Assembly (NCBI RefSeq): GCF_000739875.1
Contig: NZ_BBJR01000056.1
Coordinates: forward strand, 1-43,245
Length of the DNA: 43,245 nt
DNA from: Comamonas aquatica NBRC 14918
Lineage (GTDB): Bacteria; Pseudomonadota; Gammaproteobacteria; Burkholderiales; Burkholderiaceae_C
Direction: 5' to 3'
Positions 3,609-17,912 of the stretch are shown piece after piece. A program made the translations under genes and the position numbers. Below the pieces are notes generated by a model. It was not told the DNA's origin. It saw only the letters and a list, made by a program, of their open reading frames with translations, and searched no databases. The first letter of the stretch is position 1; each line of letters starts with the position of its first letter.

Positions 3609-3655
3609 AAAATCAAAAAAACGTAGCTGCTGGCGCTTGCACAGCTTGATTTTTG
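3609..3655. repeat. Palindrome-family element, AT-rich stem-loop
   Basis: aaaatcaa...agctg and cagcttgatttt pair around the core ctggcgcttgc. The word gtagctgctggcgcttg matches the left half of the palindrome family described at 5993, 15559 and 29929. It sits directly after the microsatellite. Confidence 0.55.
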
Positions 3656-13518: not shown

Positions 13519-15507
13519 ATGATCACCCTGAAAAACGTCACCCTGCGCCGCGGCACCAAAGTGGTGCTCGACAGCGTCAACGCCACCATCAACCCCGGTG
13601 AACACGTGGGTCTGGTCGGCCGCAACGGTGCCGGCAAATCCTCGCTGTTCGCCCTGCTGAGCGGCACGCTGCACGAAGACGGCGGCGACTTCTTCATCCC
13701 GACGCAGTGGCGCATGGGCCAGGTGGCCCAGCACATGCCCGAGACGGAGGACTCCGCCACCCAGTTCGTGCTGGACGGCGACACCCGCCTGATGGAAGTG
13801 CAGGCGCGCCTGCAGGCCGCCGAACGGGCGGGCGACGGCATGGCCATCGCCCAGGCCCATGCCGACCTGCAGGACGCTGGCGCCCACGACGCCACGGCAC
13901 GCGCCCAGGCGCTGATCCAGGGCCTGGGTTTCAAGACCGGCGAGCTGAACCAGCCCGTCAACAGCTTCTCCGGCGGCTGGCGCATGCGCCTGCAACTGGC
14001 GCGCGCGCTGATGTGCCCGTCCGACCTGCTGCTGCTGGACGAACCCACCAACCACTTGGACCTGGACGCCCTGGTCTGGCTGGAAGCCTGGCTCAAGCGC
14101 TATCCCGGCACCATGATCGTCATCTCGCACGACCGGGAGTTCCTGGACGCGGTGACCACCGTCACCCTGGAGCTGGCCAGCGGCCAGATCACGCGCTACG
14201 GCGGCAACTACAGCAAGTACGAAGAGCTGCGTGCCCAGCAGCTGGAGCTGCAGCAGTCGGCGTTCGAGAAGCAGCAGGACAAGATCGCCCACCTGCAGAA
14301 GTTCATCGACCGCTTCAAGGCCCAGGCCACCAAGGCCAAGCAGGCCCAAAGCCGCGTGAAGATGATCGAGCGCATGGAAAAAGTGGCGCCGGTACTGGCC
14401 GATGCGGAATTCACCTTTGAATTCAAAGCCCCGGCCAGCCTGCCCAACCCCATGCTGGCGATCACCGATGCCAGCTTCGGCTACACCGATGAGGCCGGCC
14501 AGACCACCACCATCCTGCGCGGCGTGAACCGCTCCGTGCTGGCGGGCCAGCGCATCGGCATCCTGGGCGCCAACGGCCAGGGCAAGTCCACCCTGGTCAA
14601 GACGATTGCCCGCACCATGCAGGCCCTGGGCGGCAAGATCACCGAGGGCAAGGGGCTGAACATCGGCTACTTCGCCCAGCAGGAGCTGGACGTGCTGCGC
14701 CCGGACGAAGACCCGCTGCAGCACATGACGCGCCTGGCCAAGGACCTGGGCGCCGACGCCCCCGCCGCCAGCCGCGAGCAGGACCTGCGCAACTGGCTGG
14801 GCACCTTCAACTTCACCGGCGACATGGTCAAGCAGACCGTGGGCAGCATGAGCGGCGGCGAAAAGGCCCGCCTGGTGCTGGCCATGATCGTCTGGCAGCG
14901 CCCCAACCTGCTGCTGCTGGACGAACCCACCAACCACCTGGACCTGGCCACGCGCGAGGCCCTGGCCATGGCCATCAACGACTTCGATGGCACCGTCATG
15001 CTGGTCTCGCACGACCGCCACCTGCTGCGCGCCGTGTGCGAGGACTTCTGGATGGTGGGCCGCGGCGTGGTCGGCCCGTTCGACGGCGATCTGGACGACT
15101 ACCAGCGCTACCTGCTGGACGAGTCCAAGCGCCTGCGCGAGGAAGCCAAGCTGGCCGAACAGGCCACCGCCATGCCCACCAGCAGCGCCAGCGACGCTGG
15201 CACAGCCCCCCCGGTCGACCAGCGCGAGGCCCGCCGCCTGGCCGCCGCCGCGCGCCAGCAACTGAGGGAAAAGACCAAGCCCCTGAAAAAGGAACTGGAG
15301 CAGGTCGACAAGCAGATGGCCACCCTGTCCGCCGAAAAGGCCGCGCTGGAGGACAAGCTGGCCACGCCACTTGCGCCGGCTGACATCGCCGAAGCCGGCA
15401 AGCGCCTGAAAACCGTGGGCGACGCCCTGGATACGCTGGAAGAGCGCTGGCTGGAGCTGAGCGAACAGATCGAGCAGCTGACGCAGGAAGCCGGCCTGGC
15501 CGGCTGA
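13519..15507 (+). CDS. ABC-F family ATPase, YheS-like
   Basis: A 662-residue soluble protein with two ABC cassettes and no membrane domain, as in ABC-F translation factors that bind the ribosomal E site. ATG 13519 (MITLKNVTLRRGTKVVLD) is preferred over 13441, which would add 26 residues encoded partly by the upstream palindrome. Cassette 1: Walker A GRNGAGKSS (34-42), signature SFSGGWRMR (about 149), LLLLDEPTNHLDLDALVWLE. The interdomain linker contains KAKQAQSRVKMIERME. Cassette 2: GANGQGKST (about 350), SMSGGEKAR (about 444), LLLLDEPTNHLD. The C-terminal coiled coil spans about 540-662. It resembles E. coli YheS more than Uup or EttA. The physiological role is unknown. Confidence 0.92.
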   Translation: MITLKNVTLRRGTKVVLDSVNATINPGEHVGLVGRNGAGKSSLFALLSGTLHEDGGDFFIPTQWRMGQVAQHMPETEDSATQFVLDGDTRLMEVQARLQAAERAGDGMAIAQAHADLQDAGAHDATARAQALIQGLGFKTGELNQPVNSFSGGWRMRLQLARALMCPSDLLLLDEPTNHLDLDALVWLEAWLKRYPGTMIVISHDREFLDAVTTVTLELASGQITRYGGNYSKYEELRAQQLELQQSAFEKQQDKIAHLQKFIDRFKAQATKAKQAQSRVKMIERMEKVAPVLADAEFTFEFKAPASLPNPMLAITDASFGYTDEAGQTTTILRGVNRSVLAGQRIGILGANGQGKSTLVKTIARTMQALGGKITEGKGLNIGYFAQQELDVLRPDEDPLQHMTRLAKDLGADAPAASREQDLRNWLGTFNFTGDMVKQTVGSMSGGEKARLVLAMIVWQRPNLLLLDEPTNHLDLATREALAMAINDFDGTVMLVSHDRHLLRAVCEDFWMVGRGVVGPFDGDLDDYQRYLLDESKRLREEAKLAEQATAMPTSSASDAGTAPPVDQREARRLAAAARQQLREKTKPLKKELEQVDKQMATLSAEKAALEDKLATPLAPADIAEAGKRLKTVGDALDTLEERWLELSEQIEQLTQEAGLAG

Positions 15508-15558: not shown

Positions 15559-15654
15559 TATAAAAAATAGCTGCTCGCGCTCACCCTGCTTTGTTTTCAG
15601 AAGCTTTTCACTTTGAAAGCAAGGCAGAACAAGCGCCAGCAGCTATATTTTTAT
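15559..15654. terminator. Bidirectional terminator made by a palindrome-family element
   Basis: Outer arms ataaaaaatagctgctcgcgct and agcgccagcagctatatttt pair almost completely, with a second inner stem (cctgctttgttttcag / ctttgaaagcaaggcag). A-tracts and T-tracts on the two sides suit terminating both the ABC-F gene (+) and the LysE-type gene (-). It is one of the two longest, most complete copies of the family. Confidence 0.75.
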
Positions 15655-15711: not shown

Positions 15712-16368
15712 TTAACGGTTGGTGGCCGCCAGCAGCCCGCCCGCCGCGATGAAGGCACCGCCCGTCACGCGGTGGAACCAGCGCCCGGGGCCACTGCGGC
15801 CCAGGCGGGCCGCCACCTTGGCGCCGCCGACGGCATAGGCAGACATGATGCTGCCATCCAGCACCATCCAGGTCACGGCCAGAATGGCCAGTTGCCCGGC
15901 CACCGGCTCGGCCGGGTTCATGAATTGCGGAAACAGGGCGCTGAAGAACAGCAAGTCCTTGGGGTTACCAATCCCCACCATGAAGCCCTTGCGGTACAGC
16001 TGACCCCAGGTGGCCGAGGGCAAGGAGGTCGCGGGCACGGCCACCTCGGCGGACTGCGCCGCTGGCGATGCGGGGGCCGCCTGGGGCCGGCTGCGCCAGG
16101 TGCTGATGCCCAGATAGACCAGGTAGGCGGCGCCAGCCCACTTGATCGCGTGGAACAGCGTGTCGGAAGCCGCAATCACCGCCCCCAGGCCCAGGGCCGA
16201 CAGCAGCATCAGCGTCATCGAGGCGGTAATCCCCCCCAGCACCGTGCCCAGGGTGCGGCGCACACCGTGGCTCACGCCGTGTGAGACGCACAGCAGGGCC
16301 GACGGCCCGGGCGACACGATCAGCGCCCCCGCCAAAGAGACATACAGCAACCAGAGATTCCACGACAT
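15712..16368 (-). CDS. LysE/RhtB-family amino-acid exporter
   Basis: A 218-residue inner-membrane translocator with about six hydrophobic helices. The start SWNLWLLYVSLAGALIVSPGPSALL carries the typical PGP motif of LysE/RhtB exporters in the first helix. GNPKDLLFFSALFPQFM matches the family GNPK/FFxALFPQF block. ATG 16368 is chosen over the in-frame GTG at 16377; gaagg lies about 11 bases upstream. A Pro/Ala/Ser-rich loop (about 100-120) joins the two halves. The substrate (amino acid or derivative) is unknown. It is divergent from the micro-ORF cluster. Confidence 0.9.
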   Translation of the reverse strand: MSWNLWLLYVSLAGALIVSPGPSALLCVSHGVSHGVRRTLGTVLGGITASMTLMLLSALGLGAVIAASDTLFHAIKWAGAAYLVYLGISTWRSRPQAAPASPAAQSAEVAVPATSLPSATWGQLYRKGFMVGIGNPKDLLFFSALFPQFMNPAEPVAGQLAILAVTWMVLDGSIMSAYAVGGAKVAARLGRSGPGRWFHRVTGGAFIAAGGLLAATNR

Positions 16369-16494
16369 CGCACCCACCCGCCTTCAGACAGCAAAGCCTT
16401 CGATTCTAGGCAATCCGCACGCGCTGCGGCCCCCTGAACGCACCGCAGACCCATCGCACAAACAGGCGGCCGAACACCCCACATTTTTTTACGT

Positions 16495-16528
16495 CAACGT
16501 GTCAACGCGGGCGATTCACCCCACGTTG
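16495..16528. promoter_or_regulatory. Inverted repeat upstream of the first micro-ORF
   Basis: caacgtg (16495-16501) and cacgttg (16522-16528) form a 7-bp inverted repeat with 20 intervening bases. It lies between divergent lysE-like and micro-ORF genes, 29 bases before the first micro-ORF. It could be an operator; nothing else supports this. Confidence 0.3.
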
Positions 16529-16556
16529 TTGGTCATACATAAGGAGTACATCCCCC

Positions 16557-16631
16557 ATGACCGCAACCACCATCCTGTCTGTCTGGCCCGAAGACGAACG
16601 CGACCGCAAGCGCAGCCCGGCTCGCCTCTGA
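16557..16631 (+). CDS. Micro-ORF copy 1 with WPEDERDRKR core (24 residues)
   Basis: A 24-codon reading frame preceded by aaggagtacatccccc, a strong Shine-Dalgarno sequence about 9 bases before ATG. The peptide begins MTATTILSV, continues with the invariant core WPEDERDRKR and ends SPARL-stop. Two more copies follow at 16741 and 16984 in the same orientation. Start, core and stop are kept in frame in all three, and the single difference inside the core codons is synonymous (CGC/CGT). The peptide is very hydrophilic and Arg-rich, with no membrane segment. No known family is recognised and the function is unknown. It may be a translated small protein or the ORF of a dual-function small RNA. Confidence 0.65.
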   Translation: MTATTILSVWPEDERDRKRSPARL

Positions 16632-16740
16632 TGGCGTTGCGGCCACTCCTGCACCAGGTACCGGCCATCCCATTCAAAAAAATGATTGTTGCTGTCAACC
16701 GCAGAAATTTGACAGCGTTGAATCTCTAAAGGACACCACC

Positions 16741-16809
16741 ATGAACATCATTGCCTCGATCTGGCCCGAAGACGAACGTGACCGCAAGCGCGCTCCCCTG
16801 CGCGGTTGA
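16741..16809 (+). CDS. Micro-ORF copy 2 with WPEDERDRKR core (22 residues)
   Basis: A 22-codon frame: MNIIASI, then the core WPEDERDRKR, then APLRG-stop. The leader aaaggacaccacc supplies a Shine-Dalgarno sequence 8-9 bases before ATG. This copy carries the one synonymous change in the core (CGT for Arg15 of copy 1). The N-terminal segment is two residues shorter than in copies 1 and 3 but keeps the small-hydrophobic pattern before the Trp. A good terminator (16850-16877) follows 40 bases later, so this copy could be its own short transcript. The function is unknown. Confidence 0.65.
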   Translation: MNIIASIWPEDERDRKRAPLRG

Positions 16810-16849
16810 AGCCCCTTGCTGCAGGTGGTCCCACGCCGCCTGCTCCCAC

Positions 16850-16877
16850 AGCCCGCTCTGCCAGCGGGCTTTGTTTT
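16850..16877 (+). terminator. Terminator after micro-ORF copy 2
   Basis: Perfect 8-bp arms agcccgct / agcgggct with loop ctgcc, followed by ttgtttt. It separates copy 2 from copy 3. Confidence 0.8.
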
Positions 16878-16983
16878 GGGCCCAGGCTTGTTACAAACAG
16901 GGACGCTTCATGCAAACGCTTGCGTCCCCATCGTCAACCCGAACGCCCCGCAACACGTTGAACAGGTACAAAGGAGTGAAACG

Positions 16984-17058
16984 ATGACACAACCCCAAAT
17001 TCTGTCTGCCTGGCCCGAAGACGAACGCGACCGCAAGCGCGCCCCTTCCCGCCTGTAA
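16984..17058 (+). CDS. Micro-ORF copy 3 with WPEDERDRKR core (24 residues)
   Basis: A 24-codon frame: MTQPQILSA, then the core WPEDERDRKR, then APSRL-stop. aaaggagtgaaacg gives a near-ideal Shine-Dalgarno sequence. It is closest to copy 1 (shared ILS before the core and RL at the end). The 106 bases between copy 2's terminator and this ATG probably hold its own promoter; a direct look finds no clear -35/-10 pair. A terminator shared with the convergent phaB follows at 17129-17156. The function is unknown. Confidence 0.65.
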   Translation: MTQPQILSAWPEDERDRKRAPSRL

Positions 17059-17128
17059 GGCTGCGGCCCGTGCCAACCGGCGCCGCCGGTGACTTGGCAG
17101 GCACTTCACAAGTTTCCTGTTCTCCATG

Positions 17129-17156
17129 AAAAAAGCCCGCATTGCGCGGGCTTTTT
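17129..17156. terminator. Bidirectional terminator between micro-ORF 3 and phaB
   Basis: aaaaaagcccgc / gcgggcttttt with loop attgc. The A- and T-tracts on each side allow it to end the phaCAB transcript (-) and the micro-ORF transcript (+). Confidence 0.88.
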
Positions 17157-17174
17157 GCTGGGCGCCAGAAGCGC

Positions 17175-17912
17175 TCAGTGCATGTGCAGACCACCGTTGA
17201 CCGAGAAATCGGCACCGGTCGAATAGCTGCCATCTTCCGAAGCCAGCCACGAGACGATGGACGCAATTTCCCGGGGCTCGCCCAGGCGCTTGACGGGGAT
17301 GGTGCCCACGATCTTGTCCAGCACATCCTGGCGGATCGCCTTGACCATGTCGGTGCCAATGTAGCCAGGGCTGACGGTGTTCACCGTAACGCCCTTGCTG
17401 GCCAGCTCCTGCGCCAGGGCCATGGTGAAACCATGCATGCCCGCCTTGGCCGCCGAGTAGTTGGTCTGTCCGGCCTGGCCCTTGGCGCCGTTGACCGAGC
17501 TGATGTTGATCACCCGGCCCCAGCCCTTTTCCACCATGTCGCCCACGACCTGCTTGGTCACGTTGAACATGGAGTTCAGGTTGGTCTCGATCACAGCCTG
17601 CCAGTCGTCCGGGGTCATCTTCAGGAACATGCGGTCCCGCGTGATGCCGGCGTTGTTCACCAGCACATCGATGCTGCCATGCTCCTGCTTGGCCTGGCCG
17701 AAGGCCTCGACGGTGGAAGCCCAGTCTCCGACGTTGCCGACGGAGGCGTAGAAGGTGTAGCCCAGGGCCTTTTGCTCGTCCAGCCACTTCTGGAAGTCGC
17801 GAGTGGGGCCGCAGCCCGCAATCACTTTGAAACCATCGTCATGCAGACGCTGGCAAATGGCAGTGCCAATGCCGCCCATCCCTCCGGTGACATACGCGAC
17901 TTTCTGACTCAT
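17175..17912 (-). CDS. phaB: Acetoacetyl-CoA reductase PhaB
   Basis: A 245-residue short-chain dehydrogenase that reduces acetoacetyl-CoA to (R)-3-hydroxybutyryl-CoA with NADPH, the second step of PHB synthesis. Start ATG 17912 (MSQKVAYVTGGMGGIGTAIC) has aaggag about 7 bases upstream; the longer frame to 17951 adds unconserved residues. The nucleotide-binding TGGMGGIG, VLVNNAGITRD, catalytic NISSVNG and YSAAK motifs, and the C-terminal GADFSVNGGLHMH are all as in Cupriavidus PhaB. It is third in the phaC-phaA-phaB order, 140 bases after phaA, and ends at a shared bidirectional terminator. Confidence 0.96.
   Translation of the reverse strand: MSQKVAYVTGGMGGIGTAICQRLHDDGFKVIAGCGPTRDFQKWLDEQKALGYTFYASVGNVGDWASTVEAFGQAKQEHGSIDVLVNNAGITRDRMFLKMTPDDWQAVIETNLNSMFNVTKQVVGDMVEKGWGRVINISSVNGAKGQAGQTNYSAAKAGMHGFTMALAQELASKGVTVNTVSPGYIGTDMVKAIRQDVLDKIVGTIPVKRLGEPREIASIVSWLASEDGSYSTGADFSVNGGLHMH

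Follow-up and report, generated by a model that had tools for sequence, protein, structure and literature searches.

Between a LysE/RhtB-type exporter gene and the phaCAB genes of Comamonas aquatica NBRC 14918 lie three very short open reading frames in tandem. Are these frames genes, and if so, what do they encode and what switches them on? The question was addressed in the window, meaning the whole 43,245-nucleotide stretch of DNA that was analysed (contig NZ_BBJR01000056.1), and in related genomes.

Three microgenes in tandem

The open reading frame list and direct reading of the window revealed three microORFs of 22–24 codons, all on the + strand, with the common core WPEDERDRKR. Each begins with ATG behind a Shine-Dalgarno sequence of the AAGGAG or AAAGGA type and contains the identical 10-residue core, five further residues and a stop, exactly as the original prediction had described. 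Copy 1 (24 residues, MTATTILSVWPEDERDRKRSPARL) occupies positions 16557–16631 (+), with its Shine-Dalgarno sequence AAGGAG at 16541–16546 (+), and was identified by its frame, by a profile match and by an orthologue in Comamonas avium (locus L046). Copy 2 (22 residues, MNIIASIWPEDERDRKRAPLRG) lies at 16741–16809 (+) behind AAAGGA at 16728–16733 (+), and copy 3 (24 residues, MTQPQILSAWPEDERDRKRAPSRL) at 16984–17058 (+) behind AAAGGAG at 16970–16976 (+); both were identified by frame, profile match and comparison with C. avium. The three Shine-Dalgarno sequences were assigned by direct reading.

The core DNA had been called nearly identical with one synonymous difference, and this was found to be the case: in the 29-nt core pattern, the sole difference among the three copies is a CGC/CGT exchange in copy 2. 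At up to three mismatches the pattern occurs in the C. aquatica genome at the three window places only, while a reversed-pattern control gave no match. The further claim that the flanks are unrelated did not hold. All three copies are preceded by GTCAAC-N16/17-CGTT, and all three have similar hydrophobic, Ser and small residues before the Trp. The promoter-like motif of copy 1 spans 16501–16529 (+; GTCAAC at 16501–16506, N17, CGTTGT at 16524–16529), with a T tract just 5′ of it at 16484–16490. That of copy 2 spans 16694–16721 (+; GTCAAC at 16694–16699, N16, CGTTGA at 16716–16721) and that of copy 3 spans 16933–16961 (+; GTCAAC at 16933–16938, N17, CGTTGA at 16956–16961). A search for sigma-70-type promoters at 16380–17200 found none.

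Separate terminators had been proposed for copies 2 and 3, and GC hairpins with T-runs were indeed read 3′ of both, at 16850–16877 and 17129–17156. The first, on the + strand, has the form AGCCCGCT-CTGCC-AGCGGGCT followed by TTGTTTT and resembles an intrinsic terminator. The second, AAAAAAGCCCGCATTGCGCGGGCTTTTT, lies between copy 3 and the convergent phaB gene and is possibly a bidirectional terminator; it was seen by direct reading and is absent from the list returned by the consensus scan. That scan of the window copies returned the copy 2 hairpin only, a count of 1 against a shuffle mean of 1.7 and thus no excess. Direct reading showed no terminator-like hairpin after copy 1. Candidate identities as tRNA or tmRNA were also considered, and none was found.

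A family of predicted microproteins in Comamonadaceae

Of 299 genomes sampled from the bacterial family to which C. aquatica belongs, 29 contained the exact core. A profile built from 24 members (A1) matched 52 of 298 genomes of the family at E ≤ 0.01 and 47 of 298 at E ≤ 1e-3, the latter distributed over 19 of 141 genera. In a sample of 399 genomes of the order, the relaxed core WxxD[DE]RDRKR was found in six, all of them among the 12 genomes of the same family; the profile likewise matched six of these 12, and neither search gave a match in the 387 genomes sampled from the other families in that order. A named scan yielded at least 118 loci, with taxon titles for 80 of them. Two loci, L045 and L070, were dropped as chance matches lacking both the promoter and a proper start, which left 116. 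Acidovorax, Comamonas, Delftia, Simplicispira, Curvibacter, Paracidovorax, Giesbergeria, Diaphorobacter and others, all Comamonadaceae, are among the matches listed, as are Xylophilus, which does not appear in the 40 taxa shown of the Comamonadaceae listing, and several metagenome-assembled genomes (MAGs). One locus (L109, NZ_CACSJA010000005.1) comes from a record titled Pantoea sp. 18069; with its ABC-F and phaB genes the locus is typical of Comamonadaceae, and the record is perhaps mislabelled or contaminated.

Relatives across genera were found to keep start, core and stop, the conservation that the original prediction had proposed to look for. Because relatives in different genera retain the start, the stop and the promoter as well, a chance origin of the frames is excluded. 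Members are 18–42 residues long, with a median of 24 in 144 instances, and follow one pattern: after Met come residues that vary, then a small patch of hydrophobic residues and Ser, then W-P-x-D-[E/D]-R-D-R-K-R, and finally a stop or a tail. The tail reads A/S-P-x-R-x in most members, and members without the A-P tail exist. Core residue 3 can be E, D, W, F, H, Y, S or G while its neighbours stay fixed. The invariance of the core is in part imposed by the pattern searches, which fix most of its residues; the profile search is freer, and the 20 stretches obtained following that search included three deviating cores (WPEDERDRRR, WPYDARDRKR and WPSDDRDRRR).

The module has been duplicated both in tandem and in frame. 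More than one copy is present in 20 of the 116 listed loci. In five of the loci (L057, L066, L073, L128 and L140) a second copy without a promoter of its own lies close behind the first, an arrangement that suggests a bicistron. Two in-frame modules occur in the single open reading frames P0001–P0004, for example P0001 (MNTTAILSAWPDDERDRKRAPMLAAWPDDERDRKRAPAGF); P0002 carries the name of an Acidovorax MAG. A single-sequence structure prediction of the double-module form is helical, with low confidence (pLDDT 62.7).

Tiny frames in tandem arrays are also a feature of type I toxin-antitoxin toxins. That the microproteins are such toxins is extremely unlikely: the peptide is by inspection strongly charged and has no hydrophobic membrane span, and the plasmid, phage and viral collections gave no match at the sensitivity used. 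Plasmids and phages were searched by tblastn, whose filter for low complexity may mask the charged core, and viral contigs by DNA pattern.

Selection and codon usage

The same ordered three-copy array is present in C. avium (L046), where two long aligned blocks around the array are 71–78% identical to the C. aquatica sequence. Over the 45 core and tail codons of the three copies, the two species differ at 15 codons. The comparison of synonymous and nonsynonymous changes that had been suggested as a check thus gave 15 synonymous and 0 nonsynonymous differences, an outcome that would have a probability of about 4e-10 under random single changes. No search pattern fixes the tails included in this comparison. 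The N-terminal stretches of the copies differ in their residues between the two species. These substitutions indicate that purifying selection acts on the microprotein at the protein level.

Codon choice within the core was compared with two reference sets, namely ten ribosomal-operon open reading frames of C. aquatica with at least 7% Lys (55 Pro and 122 Arg codons) and the matches to the window ABC-F, LysE and phaBAC genes in other loci. The core Pro is encoded by CCG in 4 of 162 cases, compared with 5.5% in the ribosomal-operon frames and 36.5% in the neighbour genes. For core Arg, CGG was used in 0 of 486 cases, compared with 0% and 9.2%, respectively. Since this avoidance of CCG and CGG matches that of the ribosomal-operon frames, the codon usage of the microgenes is, on this measure, that of highly expressed genes such as those for ribosomal proteins. 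As the ribosomal frames of C. aquatica avoid both codons alike, the avoidance does not count as evidence for an RNA signal. Conserved start, core and stop, synonymous changes, high-expression codons and double-module frames together lend strong sequence-based support to the predicted small family of translated microproteins.

The prediction had offered dual-function small RNAs as an alternative, and a short transcript that base-pairs through the conserved core, with the peptide secondary, has several points in its favour. The predicted transcripts are short and stand alone, part of the loci have a terminator-like hairpin after the frame (63 of 135 predicted transcripts compared with 37 of 405 control windows), and the codons at core positions 3 and 4 are unusually fixed. 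Against a base-pairing core, every core codon except that for Trp varies at its third base, the core and tail codon differences between orthologous copies are all synonymous, residue 3 changes while its neighbours stay, and the module has been duplicated in frame. The window also contains no Rfam family at the gathering score. A regulatory or dual-function RNA is therefore an unlikely account of the locus. A dual function is superfluous to the explanation, yet the choice of Glu and Asp codons leaves room for some role of the RNA.

This codon bias was recorded as a separate observation at window positions 16587–16607 and in the family. Core Glu3 is GAA in 121 of 123 cases, Asp4 is GAC in 151 of 162 and Asp7 is GAT in 83 of 162, a bias above that of the C. 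aquatica ribosomal frames. Some constraint at the RNA level may therefore exist at core positions 3, 4 and 7.

A probable ECF-type promoter upstream of the microgenes

The motif GTCAAC-N16/17-CGTT was located 5′ of all 31 instances seen first, including the three window copies. In its strict form it was found upstream of 146 of the 161 instances with enough flanking sequence (139 with N17 and 7 with N16), compared with 4 of 2424 random 150-nt windows from the same loci. Six of 167 instances were left out for short flanks, start codons were picked downstream of the promoter, and the counts are unweighted over instances related by descent. The motif was absent from the search criteria that retrieved the instances; because the promoter played no part in retrieval, its co-occurrence with the microgene constitutes independent evidence. 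A median of 25 nt (19–37) separates the −10 six-mer and the ATG. An in-frame ATG follows in 144 of the 146 motif-bearing instances, being absent in L069 and L095, and a Shine-Dalgarno-like sequence is present in 136 of these 144 and not recognisable in 8. The 15 instances without the strict motif comprise five with GTAAAC-N17, two with GTCATC-N17, five in which the microgene is the second member of a close pair, and L059, L076 and L088.

An ECF-type −35/−10 pair (AAC ... CGT) at fixed spacing was thus found upstream of the microORF, and from its sequence GTCAAC-N16/17-CGTT looks like an ECF-sigma-type promoter. For EcfG, the consensus is given as GGAAC-N16-CGTT with a near-invariant AAC (PMC7083833). 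The microgene motif resembles it in having a −35 element with AAC, a −10 element CGTT and nearly equal spacing. It differs in the −35 sequence GTCAAC and in a spacer of 17 in 139 of 146 instances, and the EcfG-regulon consensus itself was not matched. The hosts differ as well: EcfG is reported to be confined to Alphaproteobacteria (PMC3892343), whereas the relatives of the microgene are found in Comamonadaceae, which are Betaproteobacteria.

The two halves of the motif are partly inverted (CAACG/CGTTG) and give the alignment partial dyad symmetry, as would suit an operator bound by an activator or repressor on a gene read by another holoenzyme. The invariant parts are asymmetric, with GTCAAC on one side and on the other CGTT followed by GT, GA, AA, TT or other bases, and the variant GTAAAC retains AAC. 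In addition, the spacing of 16–17 and the distance to the ATG suit a promoter, and the search for a sigma-70-type promoter at the three window copies found none. An operator is for these reasons improbable. Pairing of GTCAAC with CGTTG as an RNA hairpin was also considered and set aside, with the fixed spacing and asymmetric invariant bases making a promoter likelier.

Other carriers of the motif and candidate sigma factors

In 12 microprotein-positive genomes, the stricter form TGTCAAC-N17-CGTTG gave 11 matches in nine genomes, compared with five for the reversed pattern; the other three genomes had no strict match. Nine of the 11 matches precede a microgene, and two, in two genera, precede one and the same other type of gene, for a small exported Lys/Ala-rich protein (MKKLLAVL...AQ...). 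When the motif was sought 40–70 nt before ATGAAAAAAC, it was found in 14 of 284 genomes, with none in the control. Of these 14, nine are of the Lys/Ala-rich exported gene type and come from genomes positive for the microprotein; the other five are three further genes for Lys-rich exported proteins and two unrelated ones. This search gave no second target in the C. aquatica genome. The loose form GTCAAC-N17-CGTT in two genomes yielded 13 matches compared with 22 for the reversed pattern; three precede a microgene and one the exported gene, and none of the remaining nine was recognised as a promoter. This exported protein, rich in Ala, Lys and His (MKKLLA...AQ...) and with GTCAAC-N17-CGTT upstream of its gene, was noted at L163, L164, L251–L254 and L257–L261, and at L163 and L164 its gene adjoins what we take to be a gene for isocitrate dehydrogenase.

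Very few genes per genome carry the motif. So few targets are odd for a sigma regulon, and their number counts in favour of the operator discussed above. So does the failure to find an autoregulated ECF gene. Three ECF sigma genes were recognised in C. aquatica, picked by eye among ten PF08281 matches in a search that covers sigma genes with that domain: an RpoE-like gene assigned by eye, a PRK09047-type gene over the cut-off of NF006550, and a SigK-like gene below the cut-offs. The stretch examined upstream of these three contained no copy of the motif, and the test for autoregulation was thus negative. Autoregulation of a cognate ECF sigma factor from its own motif is usual, not universal.

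The SigK-like factor is an unlikely driver, because at least six genomes that carry the microprotein (G128, G003, G004, G010, G016 and G018) gave no match to it at E ≤ 1e-25. By elimination, the PRK09047-type factor is the leading candidate for the driver in C. aquatica. RpoE is a possible driver there; its promoter is of the GGAACTT type, which differs from GTCAAC-N16/17-CGTT.

Proposed role and relation to known proteins

On the sequence evidence as a whole, the locus probably encodes a highly translated, ECF-controlled stress microprotein. Each copy is, as judged from its parts, a largely self-contained microgene. The unit would consist of an ECF-sigma-type promoter, a very short leader with a Shine-Dalgarno sequence, a frame of 18–42 codons and, at some loci, a terminator. 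The functional unit of the peptide would be the small hydrophobic patch together with W-P-x-D-[E/D]-R-D-R-K-R, usually ending in A-P-x-R-x. The original interpretation as a microprotein family is strongly supported by sequence; it had overlooked the shared ECF-type promoter motif and its presence before another gene in other genomes.

We propose that some stress would free an ECF sigma factor, which would switch on the microgene and, in some genomes, the small exported Lys/Ala-rich protein together with it. The charged helix after Trp-Pro may then dock in a dose-dependent manner on an abundant partner, conjecturally a ribonucleoprotein or RNA polymerase as the most likely ones; this is the weakest step of the proposal. 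Copy number might adjust the dose, and dose-dependent docking would account for both the strong predicted expression and the extra copies. A broader version of the proposal is more tentative and on balance rather doubtful. It holds that the motif marks an undescribed betaproteobacterial ECF stress response with very few targets, namely the microprotein, produced as efficiently as ribosomal proteins, and in some genomes the exported Lys/Ala-rich protein. In this version the module would be an autonomous, dose-dependent modulator of the ribosome or RNA polymerase that has been amplified by duplication in tandem and in frame.

No known family had been recognised for the peptides, and the database searches agree. 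The three peptides and one longer relative matched 0 Pfam families at E ≤ 10, one family member had 0 NCBIfam matches at E ≤ 0.001, and of 130 relatives in the protein collection the 120 listed are all hypothetical, uncharacterized or unnamed. The core string was found in no paper of the literature searched, and a search of that literature by topic returned no description of the microgene or of such an ECF response in Comamonadaceae.

Small stress proteins under ECF sigma control are a known general kind. Like them, the microgenes are very short, stand alone and follow a promoter of ECF type, but no sequence relation of the microprotein to them was found by Pfam or, for the one member compared, by NCBIfam. 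DUF1127/YjiS-like proteins are small and rich in Arg. The microprotein is also short and Arg-rich; it differs in that the three peptides and the longer relative had no Pfam match at E ≤ 10. An ECF-controlled small protein is of a known kind; this microprotein family, its module and its promoter are undescribed in the literature and databases searched. Gene callers readily overlook proteins of about 24 residues. The microprotein, found in 19 of 141 sampled genera at E ≤ 1e-3, almost always behind one promoter motif and under strong selection, offers a clean test case for what a conserved core of 10 residues is capable of, and the promoter motif gives a starting point for studying what may be an ECF response in Comamonadaceae.

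Genomic neighbourhood

The usual upstream neighbour of the microgenes is a gene for an ABC-F ATPase, located in the window at 13519–15507 (+) and just over the cut-off of the NCBIfam model for ribosomal-protection-like ABC-F proteins. It is followed by the LysE/RhtB-type exporter gene at 15712–16377 (−), with best matches to homoserine/threonine efflux models that are below the cut-offs. Downstream and convergent is phaB (acetoacetyl-CoA reductase; 17175–17912, −; TIGR01829 over the cut-off), then phaA and phaC. The setting between a LysE-type exporter and phaCAB given in the prediction is thus true of the window, but a LysE-type exporter is adjacent in only 4 of 116 listed loci (L046, L057, L128 and L140). 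The ABC-F gene ends no more than 400 nt upstream of the microgene in 77 of 105 listed loci, and convergent phaB lies no more than 500 nt downstream in 74 of 104. Both are present in 57 of the 93 listed loci with enough flank, and neither is close by in 17 of the 93; these 17 include L059, where the ABC-F gene is 1.1 kb upstream. From their translations, the alternative neighbourhoods presumably include DUF808/mntP, thiD/chaC, ahpC-ahpF and metK.

The frequent convergent phaB gene raises the idea that transcription of the microgene regulates the phaB-phaA-phaC operon in cis or by antisense. This is very unlikely, given that selection falls on the peptide and that most of the 17 loci with neither phaB nor ABC-F nearby keep promoter and peptide. 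Because neither neighbour is close by in these loci, the link to PHB metabolism is positional only, as had been suspected. A short frame with W-P and R-A-P residues, which may resemble arrest motifs, might also be a leader or arrest peptide that controls a downstream gene. In the window and in the 74 loci with phaB, the next gene downstream is the convergent phaB, and some members have no A-P tail, so the microprotein is almost certainly not a peptide of this kind.

The window also contains a palindromic element that is REP-like (AAGCGCNNGCAGCTAT and complement), with eight matches at up to two mismatches compared with 0.44 expected. Its sites lie at 15567–15646 and at 3623, 5998, 12676, 27946, 29935 and 29999. 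The pair between the ABC-F and LysE genes folds as a long hairpin (−50.4 kcal/mol, z −7.3), and inspection by eye showed sequences like this element 5′ of the microgene in other genomes as well.
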